Below are positions 2,368 to 24,211 of a stretch of 52,513 nt of DNA, piece by piece. Under the pieces are notes generated by a model. The model did not search any database. It was not told where the DNA came from and saw only the letters and a list, made by a program, of their open reading frames with translations. The stretch lies in the NCBI GenBank assembly GCA_937868185.1, contig CALMMG010000135.1, forward strand, positions 1-52,513, written 5' to 3'. This DNA is from an uncultured Pseudomonadota bacterium (GTDB lineage: Bacteria; Desulfobacterota; Desulfobulbia; Desulfobulbales; Desulfurivibrionaceae). Position 1 is the stretch's first letter, and the number at the start of each line of letters is the position of its first letter. Position numbers and translations under genes: made by a program.

Positions 2368-4173
2368 ATGAAAAAGAAGACAAAAATAATTACCGCTCCC
2401 TTTGCCTATGCTTCCCCTTGGATTCTGGCCACTGCCAGCGGCATCCTGATCGCCATTGTTTTTTTCTTTGCGGTCAACAATCTGCAACGGGAAAAAAGGA
2501 TCATGACCGAAAGCCTATTCAATAAGGGGCAGGCCATCATTCGTTTTGTCGGCGCAGGCACTCGGGCCTCAATGATGATGGGCGCCCCCTCCACCCAACA
2601 ATTCCAACATTTGATCGAACAGGCTGCGGGTGAATCGGGTATCCTCTATATCGCTGTTGCCAACAGCAGCGGAAAAATCGTAGCACACAGCACTCCCGGC
2701 CTGGTGGGCACCGACCTCAACCACCCCCTACTTGGGGACACCGATCTTGCTCCCATTGGTAAATACCAGATCATCACTGGCCAGGGAACGAAACAGAAGG
2801 TCTTTGAAATTGTAGCGCCATTCAAACCGTTCATGCGCGGGCGCGGTTATTTTTTCAAGCGACACATGCAGACAATGTCGCAGGCTGAAAAACAGGACAG
2901 GCTCGCCAGGGAAGATGCCGCACCCCCGTCTGCCTGCCAATCTTTCCTAGGCAAGGACACCTGGTTGCCCGGGGACAATCTCTCTATTGTTGTCGGCCTT
3001 GATATGGCGGAACAGGATAAGGTTATCCAGCAAGACCGCTATCACATGTTCTATATGTCCATTGCCATGCTATTGGTGGCGATTGGCGGCTGGATCGCCT
3101 TGCTCACCGCACAAAGCTACCGATCATCCCAAAAAACCCTTATGAACATGCGGGCTTTTACCGACTTGCTCATCTCTCGCCTGCCCGTGGGTATCATTGC
3201 AACCAATGCCGAAGGACATATCCAGACCTTCAACAGCACCGCGGCAAAGTTTACCGGAAAAACCACGGATCAGGCCATTGGCCAACCTCAAACCGCAGTC
3301 TTGCCGTACATTCAGCAACTGATACCCACTGATGAACAAGAAGGGGAGATCATCGACAAAGAAATTCTCTTGCCCCCGGATTCCCCGTCGCCAAATCACC
3401 TGCACATCAGCTCCGTTCCCATCACCGATGGCCACAGCAACACCATCGGCAGGGTCATCCTCATGTACGATGTCTCGGAGATAAAAAAACTCGAAGCCCA
3501 GGTCCGCCGCCATGACCGTCTTGTCGCCCTAGGCAAGATGGCGGCCGGCGTTGCCCACGAGGTGAGAAACCCATTGAGTTCCATCAAAGGGTTCGCCACC
3601 CTGCTTGGTTCACGTTTTCCGGTGGAAAGTGAGGAAGGAGAGGCGGCCAGGTTATTGATCAACGAGGTAGAACGGCTCAACCGCAGCATCACCGAACTGC
3701 TGACTTACGCCCGCCCCCTCCCCTTAGCCATTAACGAGGTTGAGATCGAACCGTTCATTGAGGCCTCTCTCAAGCTTATCCAAAGTGACGCCAAGGAACT
3801 GGGCGTTGCCGTACACCACGAGATCACCCTTGCGCGCAAGCAAGTGCGGTTGGATAAGGACCGGCTCAACCAAGTGCTGCTGAACCTCTATCTCAACAGC
3901 CTACAGGCCATGGAGCACGGAGGCGAACTACAGGTGTCGGTGCATGAGGGGCTTCGATCGGGCACTATTGAAATAGACGTGCGTGACACGGGCGGCGGAA
4001 TCGCCAAAGATATTCTGGAACGGGTCATGGACCCGTATTTTACGACCAAACCGGAAGGTACCGGTCTGGGGCTGGCCATGGTTTATAAAATCATTGACGA
4101 ACATGGGGGCACAATCAGAATCGCAAGCAAAGAAGGGGAAGGTACCACGGTTAGCATCGTCCTCCCGGGATGA
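2368..4173 (+). CDS. ZraS/NtrB-type membrane sensor histidine kinase with PAS domain
   Basis: The 601-residue protein has a first membrane helix at about residues 14-36, a periplasmic sensor region of about 190 residues, a second helix near 229-247, and a PAS-like domain around 265-380. A HisKA dimerisation domain follows with the phospho-acceptor at His397 in 'AHEVRNPLSSIKG', then a HATPase domain ('NQVLLNLYLNSLQAM', 'DTGGGI', 'GTGLGLAMVYKI'). It should autophosphorylate and pass phosphate to an NtrC-type regulator. The divergent zraP-like gene suggests zinc or envelope-stress sensing, as for E. coli ZraS, but this protein is longer because of the PAS domain. No response regulator gene adjoins it: the next gene is convergent murA, whose stop codon is only one base away. 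Confidence 0.88.
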   Translation: MKKKTKIITAPFAYASPWILATASGILIAIVFFFAVNNLQREKRIMTESLFNKGQAIIRFVGAGTRASMMMGAPSTQQFQHLIEQAAGESGILYIAVANSSGKIVAHSTPGLVGTDLNHPLLGDTDLAPIGKYQIITGQGTKQKVFEIVAPFKPFMRGRGYFFKRHMQTMSQAEKQDRLAREDAAPPSACQSFLGKDTWLPGDNLSIVVGLDMAEQDKVIQQDRYHMFYMSIAMLLVAIGGWIALLTAQSYRSSQKTLMNMRAFTDLLISRLPVGIIATNAEGHIQTFNSTAAKFTGKTTDQAIGQPQTAVLPYIQQLIPTDEQEGEIIDKEILLPPDSPSPNHLHISSVPITDGHSNTIGRVILMYDVSEIKKLEAQVRRHDRLVALGKMAAGVAHEVRNPLSSIKGFATLLGSRFPVESEEGEAARLLINEVERLNRSITELLTYARPLPLAINEVEIEPFIEASLKLIQSDAKELGVAVHHEITLARKQVRLDKDRLNQVLLNLYLNSLQAMEHGGELQVSVHEGLRSGTIEIDVRDTGGGIAKDILERVMDPYFTTKPEGTGLGLAMVYKIIDEHGGTIRIASKEGEGTTVSIVLPG

Positions 4174-4174
4174 A

Positions 4175-5431
4175 TCACTCTTTTTCGCGCCTGATTTTGG
4201 CCCCGGCTGCGGAGAGTTTACCCACCAGGTTGTCATAGCCTCGATCCAGATGATAGACTCGGGAGATATGTGTTTCCCCCTCCGCAGCAAGAGCCGCGAT
4301 CACCAAAGAGGCGCTGGCCCGCAAATCCGTAGCCATCACCGGTGCCCCACTCAACCGGCCTAAGCCGGTGACGATGGCGCTGTGACCGTCAACCTTGATG
4401 TCCGCCCCCATGCGGTGCAACTCGGCCACATGCATGAAACGGTTCTCGAAGATGGTCTCGGCAATCACGCTCAAGCCATCGCTCAAGGTCATCAGCGCCA
4501 TGATCTGGGCCTGGAGGTCTGTGGCGAAGCCAGGATAGGGCATGGTCTTAATATCTACGCTTTTAAGAGGCCCTTTGCGGGTAACATGGATGCGGTCCCG
4601 GTCCTCCTCGATCGACAGGCCTGCAGATCGTAATTTTTCCAGCAAGGCTGGCAGATGCTGCGGGTTACACTGCGTCACCGTAGCCTCGCCGCCAACCGCA
4701 CCAACGGCGATGAGATAGGTCCCGGCCTCGATTCGGTCAGGAATAACCTCCTGTTCGGCCCCATGCAGTTTTTTTACCCCCTCAACCACCAAGGTGTCGG
4801 TATCTTTGCCCTTGATCCGCGCCCCCATAGCGGTAAGCAGATCGACAAGATTCCCGATCTCCGGCTCACGGGCTGCGTTCTTGATCACGGTGACGCCCTC
4901 GGCCAGGGTCGCGGCCATGAGGATATTCTCCGTCCCGGTGACTGAAGGGATATCGAAACAGACAGTCCCGCCCTTCAAACGTCCCACCGCCTTGGCCTCG
5001 ACATATCCCTGATTCAATTCGTACTGGGAACCGAGTTTTTCCAGCCCCTGAAGATGAAAATTAATGGGCCGGGCGCCGATGGCACAACCTCCTGGCAAAG
5101 AAACACGGGCTGTACCCATCCGGGCCAAAAGGGGACCCAGAACCAGCACCGAGGCCCGCATGGTTTTTACCAACTCATAGGACGCCTCGCAGCTGATAAT
5201 TGTCCCTGCATCAAGCACCAACACCGTGCCATCTTTCTGCCATTTGACCCCGAAAGACTCCAGCAGGGTGAGAAAGGTTCGAACATCCCGAAGATCCGGG
5301 ACATTGCGCAAAATTATCGGCTCAGCACTCAGCAGACAGGCGGCCATCAGCGGCAGGGCTGCATTTTTAGCGCCGCTCACGGCAATCTCACCATGCAGAG
5401 GATATCCACCTTCAATAACGATCTTATCCAT
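4175..5431 (-). CDS. murA: UDP-N-acetylglucosamine 1-carboxyvinyltransferase
   Basis: This 418-residue cytoplasmic enzyme transfers enolpyruvate from PEP to UDP-GlcNAc, the first committed step of peptidoglycan synthesis. The sequence has the expected N-terminal 'GAKNAALP' with the active-site Lys22/Asn23. It also has the catalytic loop 'GGCAIGARP' with Cys116, the residue alkylated by fosfomycin, and the C-terminal '[15 protein letters not shown]' arginine motif. Length is normal for the family. It is the last gene of the minus-strand run rho-rpmE-prfA-prmC-murA and starts 50 bases after prmC. Its stop lies one base from the stop of the convergent histidine kinase, so antisense read-through into either gene is possible; no terminator hairpin was seen between them. 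Confidence 0.97.
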
Positions 5432-5481
5432 GAAGTTCTCTCTTAATATATAAAAAATCGCGAAAAGGGCGACGATACAAA

Positions 5482-6336
5482 TCAGCAGCGACGGGCCTGG
5501 AAAATACGCGCCAAACCAGCCAGATCAAAATGGACCTGCAACCTATCATATTCGGGAAAAGAAGAAAAGATTTTCAACACAGACTCCTGCTGATCCGCAC
5601 CGATCTCCATAAAAAACCAGCCGCCGGTCAACAACACCGGGTGAACCTGTGTCGCCAAAGCGCGAATATCGGCAAGGCCATCAGCGCCTCCGCTCAGGGC
5701 ACCATGCGGCTCGAAGGTCACTTCCGGCTGCAAGGTGGCCATTGCCGCTGCATCTATGTAGGGTGGATTAGAGACAACCAGGGCAAACCTGGGTTCCTGC
5801 CGAATGGCCGTCAACCAGTTCCCGTTCAGTAGAAAAACTCTTGGTTGGACCTGATGCAACCGGATATTTTCTTTGGCAACTCTGAGCGCGGGCAGGGAAA
5901 GGTCTACCCCGAAAACTTGGCGATCGTCGAGTTCTCGGGCCAGGACCACGGTGATTGCCCCACTCCCAACCCCCAGATCCAGAACCGGACCAGATGGCAG
6001 CCCGATTTGACGCACAGTATCAAAAATTTTCTCGAGCAATTCTTCGGTTTCGGGCCGTGGAATGAGAACATTGCGGGAAACATTGAAGGGCAATGACCAG
6101 AATTCCTGCTCACCAATGATATAGGCCAATGGTTCCCGGAGAAGGCGTCGAACAAGAAGCTTATTGTATAAAAAAAGCTGCGAGGAAGGGACTTCCTGCT
6201 CCATGGCAAGAAAAAATTGACTCCTGGAATAGCTCAGGACATGCCCCAGCAAAAGAGCTGCATCGATTTCCGGATCAGCAACGCCCGCATCGGTAAGGCG
6301 GCGGACGCTCTCAAGATAAAGCTGTTTGAGAATCAT
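5482..6336 (-). CDS. prmC: Peptide chain release factor N5-glutamine methyltransferase
   Basis: The product (284 residues, also called HemK) methylates the glutamine of the GGQ motif in RF1 and RF2, raising termination efficiency. It shows the N-terminal helical substrate-binding domain, the SAM-binding loop 'DLGVGSGAI' beginning at residue 120 and the catalytic 'NPPY' at residues 190-193. The gene directly follows prfA, which encodes its substrate RF1, with a 53-base gap; this pairing is conserved across bacteria. Size and motifs are all as expected. Confidence 0.96.
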
Positions 6337-6389
6337 AGGAAGTCATCCGTACCGAAGAAAAACTGAAAGCCTCATCCAAGGGACGCGAT

Positions 6390-7454
6390 TTATTGCATAA
6401 TCTGCAGGGCTTCTGTTTGAAAATGAACAGTGAGGGGGTCGATGATATCGTCAAGTTTCCCCATCAGAATATCATCAAGCTGGTACAGAGTGAGATTGAT
6501 CCGGTGATCGCTGACCCGGCCCTGGGGGAAATTATAGGTCCGGATGCGTTCGCTCCGGTCACCGCTGCCCACTTGGCTCTTTCGGTCTGCCGACATCTTC
6601 TCGTCCTGTTCGCGCTGCATCTTGTCGAGAAGCCGGGCCCGAAGAACCTGCAAAGCCTTAGCCTTGTTTTTGTGCTGGGATTTTTCATCCTGACAGGTCA
6701 CCACCAACCCGGTGGGTAGGTGGGTAACCCGAACCGCTGAATCGGTGGTATTAACGCTCTGCCCGCCTGAGCCGGTGGAACGGTAGACATCGAACCGCAG
6801 TTCATTGGGGCTGATATCAAGCTCAACCTCTTCCGCCTCGGGCATAACCGCCACGGTCACGGCAGAGGTATGAATACGGCCTTGCGTTTCCGTGTCGGGA
6901 ACACGCTGCACCCGATGGGCTCCAGACTCATATTTTAATCTACTGTAAACATGATCGCCGCTGATCAGGGCGATGATTTCCTTAAATCCCCCGATGCCGG
7001 TGGGATTGCTGGTCATCACCTCAACCTTCCAACCCTGCTGCTCGGCATACCTGCTGTACATCCTAAAAAGATCGCTAACAAACAGGGCTGCCTCGTCTCC
7101 GCCGGTGCCGGCCCTGATCTCAAGAAGGGTATTCTTCTCATCATTGGGATCCTTGGGAAGTAGGGCAACCCGAAGCGCCTTGATCAATTCATCCTGACGG
7201 ATTTCAAGCTCGACAAGATCAGCCCGGACAAGCTCTCGAATCTCGCTATCTTCTTCCTGCAGCAGAAGACGATTCGCGGCGATTTCCTTAGTCACCTTCT
7301 TGTAATTGTTGTACAGATCATCAAGTTTTGCCAGATGGGCGTGTTCTTTGGCCACCCGGCGAAATTCGGCCTGATCACTTGCCAATTGCGGCTCTGAAAG
7401 TCTGGCCTCAAGAGCAAGCTTGCGTTCTGCAACATTTTCAAGTTGAGCAAACAT
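6390..7454 (-). CDS. prfA: Peptide chain release factor 1 (RF1)
   Basis: The 354-residue protein ends translation at UAA and UAG. Residues 230-232 form the GGQ catalytic motif in '[15 protein letters not shown]'. The stop-codon recognition tripeptide is of the RF1 PxT type, here Pro186-Asp187-Thr188, where E. coli has PAT. Presence of the PxT rather than the SPF motif separates it from RF2. The next gene, prmC, encodes the enzyme that methylates its GGQ glutamine. Because RF1 does not read UGA, it should not compete with selenocysteine insertion at the UGA codon of the SelW-like gene in this window; RF2 would. Confidence 0.97.
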
Positions 7455-21508: not shown

Positions 21509-22768
21509 ATGAAAAACGAAACCAGGGTGGCGGTTGTCGGTTGTGGCCCGGCCGGACTCATGGCCGCCACCGTCTTAAGCGAAGCAGGCCTGTCAGTGGA
21601 TCTCTTCGATACAAAAGGTTCGGCTGGCTGTAAATTCCTGGTTGCCGGTCGCGGGGGGCTCAATCTTACTCATTCGGAACACGCCGAATCCTTTGTCGCC
21701 CGCTACGGGAACAACGCCGAAATTTTCAAAAAATTCCTTGCCGATTTTTCGCCAGACGACCTGCGCGCCTGGTTGCGCCGACTCGGAGTGGAAACCTTTG
21801 TCGGCACCAGTGGCCGGGTCTTCCCCAAAGACGCCACCGCCCGCGATATTCTGAAAATCTGGATTGATGCCCTGGGCAAACACGGTGTTGTTTTCCACTA
21901 CCACCACCGCTGGCAGGGATTTACCAAAACAGGCACCCCAATCTTTATTACTAAGACCGGCGAACTCCTCGAACTCCCGGCTAAGGCCGTACTCCTTGCC
22001 CTGGGCGGGGCAAGCTGGCCGCAAACCGGCTCTGATGGAAGCTGGACCTCGCTCCTCGTTACCAAGGGCGTCCATTTAGAACCATTCCGCCCGGCAAATT
22101 GCGGGCTCGAAGTGGCGTGGTCCGAGCATTTCCGTAGCCGCTTTAGCGGCAAACCCCTCAAAAATATCCTGCTCCGCTGTGACGACCAGCAGGCCACCGG
22201 CGATGTGGTGGTGACCAGCCATGGCCTGGAAGGAGGGCCGGTCTATGCCTTGAGCGGGGTCATCCGCGACCTATTGAAAAAAACCAAGCCCGTCCCCCTC
22301 TTTCTCGATCTCAAACGCGATCTCTCACTGGAACGGATTCAGGAAAAACTTGAACACCCGCGCGGCAAGGAAAGTCTCGCCAATTTCCTGCGCAAGGCCA
22401 TACACCTTACCGGCCCAGCCTACTCACTGCTCCGCGAAATCTGCTCCTCGGAAGAGCTAAACAGCCCGGAGGTTCTTGCCGAACACATTAAGAATCTTCC
22501 CATACCCATCATCAATACCAGGCCTCTTGCCGAGGCAATTTCCTCTGCCGGAGGTATAACCTTTCCAGAGGTAGACGAGAACCTCATGCTCCGTAAACTC
22601 CCCGGAGTATTCGTGGCCGGAGAAATGCTGGACTGGGAAGCACCAACCGGAGGCTACCTGCTACAGGGCGCCTTTACCACCGGATACCTGGCCGCACAAG
22701 GCCTTCTGAAATGGCTGAAACTTTCGATCCACCCACTCCCGCCGCACCCTTCCACACAGGACAACTGA
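21509..22768 (+). CDS. YhiN/HI0933-family FAD-dependent oxidoreductase
   Basis: The 419-residue flavoprotein has the N-terminal dinucleotide-binding motif 'VVGCGPAGLMAATVLSEAG' and the family signature 'GCKFLVAGRGGLNLTHSE'. It ends with 'GVFVAGEMLDWEAPTGGYLLQGAFTTGYLAAQG', the FAD-binding block of this group. Members are soluble enzymes (the family includes BaiN-like reductases); the subgroup appears closest to the shorter TIGR03862 type. The physiological substrate is unknown. It may form a unit with the small Cys protein just upstream. The 203 bases before the SelW-like gene contain no gene. Confidence 0.85.
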   Translation: MKNETRVAVVGCGPAGLMAATVLSEAGLSVDLFDTKGSAGCKFLVAGRGGLNLTHSEHAESFVARYGNNAEIFKKFLADFSPDDLRAWLRRLGVETFVGTSGRVFPKDATARDILKIWIDALGKHGVVFHYHHRWQGFTKTGTPIFITKTGELLELPAKAVLLALGGASWPQTGSDGSWTSLLVTKGVHLEPFRPANCGLEVAWSEHFRSRFSGKPLKNILLRCDDQQATGDVVVTSHGLEGGPVYALSGVIRDLLKKTKPVPLFLDLKRDLSLERIQEKLEHPRGKESLANFLRKAIHLTGPAYSLLREICSSEELNSPEVLAEHIKNLPIPIINTRPLAEAISSAGGITFPEVDENLMLRKLPGVFVAGEMLDWEAPTGGYLLQGAFTTGYLAAQGLLKWLKLSIHPLPPHPSTQDN

Positions 22769-22971: not shown

Positions 22972-23196
22972 ATGAAGATCACCATCACCTACTGCACACA
23001 ATGAAACTATCTGCCACGGGCTTCCAGGCTGGAAGCCGAGCTGAAGCAACAATTCGCCGCCGAGGTTGAGCTGATTCCAGGATCAGGCGGCATCTATGAA
23101 ATCATGGTCGATGGCCACCTGATCTTTTCAAAACAGGCGGCCGGCCGTTTTGCCGAGCCCGAAGAAATCATCAGCCTCATCCAGAACCACGGATAA
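22972..23196 (+). CDS. SelW-like (Rdx family) selenoprotein, Sec at in-frame TGA
   Basis: The 74-codon gene starts at ATG 22972 and ends at TAA 23194-23196, with one in-frame TGA at 23002-23004 (codon 11). Read as selenocysteine, the N terminus is 'MKITITYCTQ-U-NYLPRASRL', with the CxxU redox motif (Cys8, Sec11) of the SelW/SelT/SelH thioredoxin-like family. The rest fits the Rdx fold: 'VELIPGSGGIYEIMVDGHLIFSK' and 'AGRFAEPEEIISLI'. Bacterial homologues have 'YCTQCNW' or a Sec version here. A SECIS-like hairpin lies just after the TGA (23019-23037). Frame and conservation persist on both sides of the TGA, which argues against a pseudogene. The FHA-cyclase gene follows after 22 bases. The role is presumed thiol redox; the substrate is unknown. 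Decoding needs selABC elsewhere in the genome. Confidence 0.88.
23019..23037 (+). promoter_or_regulatory. Bacterial SECIS-like hairpin
   Basis: A perfect 7-bp stem (GGCTTCC at 23019-23025, GGAAGCC at 23031-23037) encloses the loop AGGCT. The loop begins 22 bases after the UGA and has G as its second base, both within the described limits for bacterial SECIS elements recognised by SelB. It lies inside the reading frame, as bacterial SECIS elements must. Confidence 0.78.
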
Positions 23197-23218: not shown

Positions 23219-24211
23219 ATGACCGAATCCCAGGAAAAGCCAGCGACCCTCATTCTTCTTGATGCCCAGGAAGCCACTGCCCACCGCTGGCTGCTCAACA
23301 ACAGTACCACCTATAGTCTGGGCCGGGTGGCCAACACCGATATCACCCTTCCCTATTCATGGGTATCCCGGAAACACGCCATGATTCAAAAGGAAGAAAA
23401 TGGCCGCTTCAGTCTCCTTGATCTGGGCAGCTCCAACGGCACTTTTATCAACGGCCGTAAAATTCATACGCCCGTTACCCTACAAGATGGAGACTGCATC
23501 GGCATCGGCAGCACCCGTCTCCTGTTCCACCAAGATATCATCCCTGCCCAGCCGTCACCACCAAGCAGCTCTGACCTCGATGAAATGACCGTGGCCTTTG
23601 TCCAGAAACAGATCATCACCATTCTGATCTGCGACATCCATGAATTCACTAAATTGTCCGAAACCATGGGGGACAAGTGGGTTTCCCAGCTTCTCCAACA
23701 CTGGACGGGAGGAGTAAGCAAGCTGGTACACAAACATAACGGGGTAGTCGATAAATTTATCGGTGACGCGGTCATGGCCCTATGGGCTGGACCACATCTT
23801 CAGGACAATATCAACCATGCCCTGAAAACCGCTATTGCCATCAATACATTCACCAACAATCTCAACAAGAAGGTTCCGAATCTACCCTGGCCTCTGCAGA
23901 TCGGGGCTGCCCTTAACACCGGCGAGGCCATGATGGGAAATCTTGCCCAAGACGGGGAGAATAACTATACCGTGGTCGGGGACGTGGTCAACGTGGCTTT
24001 TCGCCTGGAAAACATGACCAACAGTCAAGAGAATCTGGATCTTGTTATGGGCTGCGATGCCGCAATACACCTCCTTGAGCCCGATACTTTTTTTAAAAAA
24101 TACTCCTTCCGGGTGAAAGGAAAACAGGAGGCGGTTGAGGCCTATGGTTGCAGCTTTTCCCAGCTTTCATCCTATCTTGAAAAAAACACAGGGATGCCAT
24201 GCGCCCTGTGA
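23219..24211 (+). CDS. FHA domain-class III adenylate cyclase
   Basis: The 330-residue cytoplasmic protein joins an FHA domain (about residues 25-105) to a class III cyclase domain (about 128-315). FHA landmarks are Gly35-Arg36, 'SRKH' and 'SSNGTFING', which bind phospho-threonine. The cyclase has both metal aspartates, Asp139 ('LICDIHEFT') and Asp183 ('KFIGDAVMALW'), the adenine-specifying Lys179/Asp255 pair, and Asn258/Arg262 in 'VVNVAFRLE'. It should therefore be active and make cAMP. The ATG at 23219 was preferred over upstream in-frame starts that overlap the selenoprotein gene. It follows that gene by 22 bases and precedes the HD-GYP gene by 75. A Ser/Thr kinase partner for the FHA domain is not in the window. 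Confidence 0.9.
   Translation: MTESQEKPATLILLDAQEATAHRWLLNNSTTYSLGRVANTDITLPYSWVSRKHAMIQKEENGRFSLLDLGSSNGTFINGRKIHTPVTLQDGDCIGIGSTRLLFHQDIIPAQPSPPSSSDLDEMTVAFVQKQIITILICDIHEFTKLSETMGDKWVSQLLQHWTGGVSKLVHKHNGVVDKFIGDAVMALWAGPHLQDNINHALKTAIAINTFTNNLNKKVPNLPWPLQIGAALNTGEAMMGNLAQDGENNYTVVGDVVNVAFRLENMTNSQENLDLVMGCDAAIHLLEPDTFFKKYSFRVKGKQEAVEAYGCSFSQLSSYLEKNTGMPCAL

Follow-up and report, generated by a model that had tools for sequence, protein, structure and literature searches.

The window analyzed here, a 52,513-nt stretch of DNA, carries on its forward strand a selW-like gene of the Rdx family (22972–23196) that opens with ATG at 22972 and comprises 74 codons before a TAA stop at 23194–23196. 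Codon 11 is an in-frame TGA (23002–23004, forward strand) that we read as selenocysteine (Sec, U), and a hairpin with the features of a bacterial SECIS element lies just downstream (23019–23037, forward strand). Further along the same strand is a gene encoding an FHA-domain class III adenylate/guanylate cyclase-like protein (23219–24211; Pfam FHA, 5e-20; Guanylate_cyc, 7e-10), which starts 22 nt past the selW stop. Upstream of selW, an HI0933-like flavoprotein (TIGR03862) is encoded at 21509–22768; it adjoins selW within the genus and was not found beside selW in other genera.

With TGA translated as U, the selW product is MKITITYCTQUNYLPRASRLEAELKQQFAAEVELIPGSGGIYEIMVDGHLIFSKQAAGRFAEPEEIISLIQNHG, and its CxxU motif is C8-T-Q-U11. 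A first-pass annotation of this DNA had described a 74-codon gene split by TGA at codon 11, at the site of the CxxC/CxxU motif of Rdx/SelW proteins, and coordinates and translation agree with that description. Pfam PF10262 (Rdx) matches the product at 3e-23 (82.3 bits versus a curated cut-off of 22.6), and the score against NCBIfam NF041051, an equivalog model of SelT/SelW/SelH (seleno)proteins, is 101 bits, above the cut-off of 88. The latter model, SelTWH_Campy, is named after Campylobacterota, whereas the member in the window derives from Desulfobulbaceae-like bacteria. By sequence, the nearest relatives in the PDB are bacterial proteins such as 2fa8, with selenoprotein W (2npb) more distant. 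A thioredoxin-like fold is predicted from these solved homologues, and the family suggests a redox function.

As the first-pass annotation expected of standard gene calling, a table-11 listing of open reading frames (ORFs) does not report the selW-like gene; a 10-codon ORF is read, with no second start nearby. Such a listing is compatible with two short unrelated ORFs flanking a genuine stop codon. However, a single Rdx domain covers residues 2–72 and runs uninterrupted across the TGA, with frame and family resemblance retained on both sides as had been claimed, and we consider the notion of two ORFs vanishingly improbable.

SelW-like matches turned up in 81 of 97 genomes drawn from the genus, family and order, and all 81 have the in-frame TGA. 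From these 81 genomes, 82 loci were recovered, and in all 82 the frame is intact and the TGA occupies the identical CxxU position. No Cys form of SelW was found among the 82 loci. The sole match in the 97 genomes without an inner stop is a 45-residue fragment at the edge of a contig; it begins past the TGA. Those relatives that bear names are MAGs of uncultured Desulfobulbaceae and Deltaproteobacteria, one of them called Desulfurivibrio sp. In a sample of 395 genomes from the phylum, 49 of 51 matches have the in-frame TGA; the other two are presumably Cys forms. Judging from these genomes, a SelW-like TGA gene is common in this bacterial order, where SelW exists almost exclusively in the Sec form. 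This near-exclusive Sec form agrees with the suggestion, made in 2006, that the family started out with Sec. Within the genus, codons 12–71 of selW have a median dN/dS of 0.16, indicative of purifying selection downstream of the TGA. At one locus (L036, match 1501–1716), the codon for the first motif Cys is also TGA (MKIVIKYUVQUNF); either a sequencing error occurred here or this SelW may carry two selenocysteines in a UxxU motif.

The hairpin has a stem of GGCUUCC/GGAAGCC and a loop of AGGCU, encoded by GGCTTCC (23019–23025), AGGCT (23026–23030) and GGAAGCC (23031–23037). Fourteen nucleotides separate the TGA from the stem and the loop begins 22 nt after the TGA, coordinates that bear out the 7-bp hairpin of the earlier description; folding adds one A-U pair, giving 8 bp and a loop of GGC. 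Published limits for bacterial SECIS elements are a loop of 3–9 nt, an upper stem of 4–16 bp, a G in the first two loop positions, a UGA-to-loop distance of 16–37 nt and a minimum free energy of at most −7.5 kcal/mol (PMC13188914). The hairpin lies within all of them (7 bp, loop AGGCU at 22 nt, −15.1 kcal/mol for a 44-nt stretch), in line with the original claim that it fits bacterial SECIS rules. The fold energy has a z of only −1.7 relative to shuffled sequences, and stems of at least 7 Watson-Crick bp occur at a comparable distance from 14 of the 1713 TGA trinucleotides in the window (about 0.8%, own site included). The SECIS of E. coli formate dehydrogenase (fdhF) is a stem-loop immediately after the UGA, inside the coding sequence, with a G in the apical loop. 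The window's hairpin likewise lies directly past the UGA in coding sequence and has a G in its loop.

A single-sequence fold with this z is weak evidence on its own; covariation is decisive. Among 96 distinct sequences, standard pairs make up 95% of cells at the six core positions, versus 35–57% when the 3′ partner is shifted by 1–3 columns. Between codons 17 and 21, the wobble bases vary in concert: T-A (59) and C-G (23) prevail over C-A (9), T-G (4) and G-C (1) (Fisher p 4e-11, without phylogenetic correction). Changes at codon 18 are matched at codon 21, even where the amino acids differ as a result: Ser-TCC accompanies Glu-GAR or Gly-GGR, Ala-GCC accompanies Ala-GCN, and Thr-ACC accompanies Val-GTG. 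Compensatory changes are found at both synonymous and amino-acid-changing sites, in counts that ignore phylogeny. Mismatches are T.C in five sequences, mostly near-identical Acidobacteria records, and A.C in two. The codon for Ser18 is TCC in 95 of 95 cases, versus 40% of Ser codons in neighboring genes, and third-position differences within the genus amount to 0.11 per site in hairpin codons versus 0.28 elsewhere. At the base of the stem, the outermost two pairs seen in the window are not conserved across the order. On this comparative evidence, the hairpin is a bacterial SECIS element and a candidate for SelB binding. Family assignment and conservation together place the gene and its TGA far outside what chance would give.

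These data bear on whether the gene is a pseudogene, namely an Rdx gene of the Cys form that a nonsense mutation has disabled. A young pseudogene would be expected to have a lone in-frame stop, and the draft genome has no match to selA. Nonetheless, because all 82 loci across the order carry TGA at the CxxU site and purifying selection continues after it, the TGA is not a mutation. The intact frames, the dN/dS of the downstream codons and the covarying hairpin likewise argue against a pseudogene, which we regard as very unlikely. A decayed TGA region in sister strains, looked for as a sign to the contrary, was not seen among the 82 loci, where TGA and frame are intact and the hairpin is kept.

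The genome to which the window belongs is an 86% complete draft of 2.67 Mb in 205 contigs. It contains selB (365 bits), selD (356 bits) and selC, encoding a tRNA-Sec with a UCA anticodon (72.5 bits); no match to selA was found in this draft. The first-pass annotation had implied a Sec-decoding genome, a proposal that held for selB, selC and selD and is incomplete for selA; selB and selC, whose absence would have spoken against Sec decoding, are both present. In a congener, selA occupies positions 5214–6656 of a 12-kb neighborhood. Alignment with contig C40 of the draft ends at neighborhood position 3473 and resumes at 6881, on the first base of contig C45. Thus, selA is probably missing from the draft only because its place falls in the assembly gap between the ends of C40 and C45, and selA was found in 16 of 16 congeners. 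We therefore rejected the idea of a genome without selA and hence unable to make Sec. Structured RNA next to selA, such as an rRNA operon, was considered as a cause of contig breaks at that place and dismissed, with no Rfam match in three stretches.

Two near-complete relatives also gave no selA match. In one (G070), the gene found after selA in relatives is immediately preceded by a 5000-base run of N (L158:5502–10501). The absence of selA there is an artifact of the record because the N run sits at the expected place of selA, and we did not accept this organism as a Sec decoder without selA. The other (G063, 2 contigs) has selB, tRNA-Sec and a TGA-containing SelW. In two further genomes, a second, shorter selB-like match (G061:C19:2750–3979 and G033:C104:7084–8328) adjoins a second, divergent tRNA-Sec-like gene.

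The decoding genes also weigh on a reassigned genetic code, in which TGA specifies an ordinary amino acid, and on unspecific readthrough. Support for these is confined to the frame being open under such a reading. Conversely, TGA is the normal stop in 7 of 12 genes checked around the site; because TGA ends neighboring genes, the code is not reassigned. Moreover, the genome encodes selB and a tRNA-Sec with a UCA anticodon, and a specific SECIS-type hairpin is conserved. Reassignment or readthrough is thus highly improbable. With the gene, its conserved TGA, the covarying SECIS hairpin and the machinery genes all observed, comparative sequence evidence indicates that this is almost certainly a functional SelW-like selenoprotein gene. 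By the established mechanism, SelB with Sec-tRNA(Sec) would bind the hairpin that closely follows UGA 11, and Sec would be inserted at this codon in the cell, as we infer from the parts present. The predicted product is a small protein with a thioredoxin-like fold and a Cys-x-x-Sec redox center that probably participates in thiol/selenol redox exchange.

The gene is a further member, from one more species, of a well-known bacterial selenoprotein family. Prokaryotic SelW-like (SELENOW-like) CxxU selenoproteins are treated in papers from 2006 (PMC1794560) and 2008 (PMC2398784) and in a 2026 review (PMC13188914). The 2006 paper lists SelW-like selenoproteins in Deltaproteobacteria, names the Desulfotalea and Geobacter lineages in a table of losses, and states that Sec forms of SelW-like proteins predominate in Sec-using organisms (PMC1794560). 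The known proteins share with ours the PF10262 family, a CxxU motif with Sec second, a hairpin directly downstream, occurrence in Deltaproteobacteria and a scarcity of Cys homologues in Sec-using organisms; nothing essential differs. The neighborhood does differ from that reported for SelW in some marine reads, where the neighbor is a Prx gene rather than an FHA cyclase-like gene.

The selW and FHA cyclase-like genes are likely co-transcribed. At 37 of the 82 loci (L009–L096), selW has a homologue of the cyclase-like gene as its downstream same-strand neighbor, mostly within 100 nt, and these 37 loci fall into seven of the order's families (f1, f5, f6, f7, f8, f14 and f15). No discussion of this pairing was found in the portions of the SelW literature consulted, and it is possibly the only new item here. 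We know of nothing about SelW that explains a conserved pair with a cyclase-like gene. The conserved neighborhood suggests a functional link between the two, as a redox-signaling pair. That SelW and the FHA cyclase-like protein form a conserved two-gene redox-signaling module of this order is a tentative and rather unlikely proposal; if true, the CxxU protein would sense or set thiol redox state for cyclic-nucleotide signaling. The selW-like gene is a clean case of a gene missed by plain ORF calling, and conservation, covariation and machinery genes together recover it. The neighboring cyclase-like gene, in turn, offers a testable hint at the role of SelW in bacteria.
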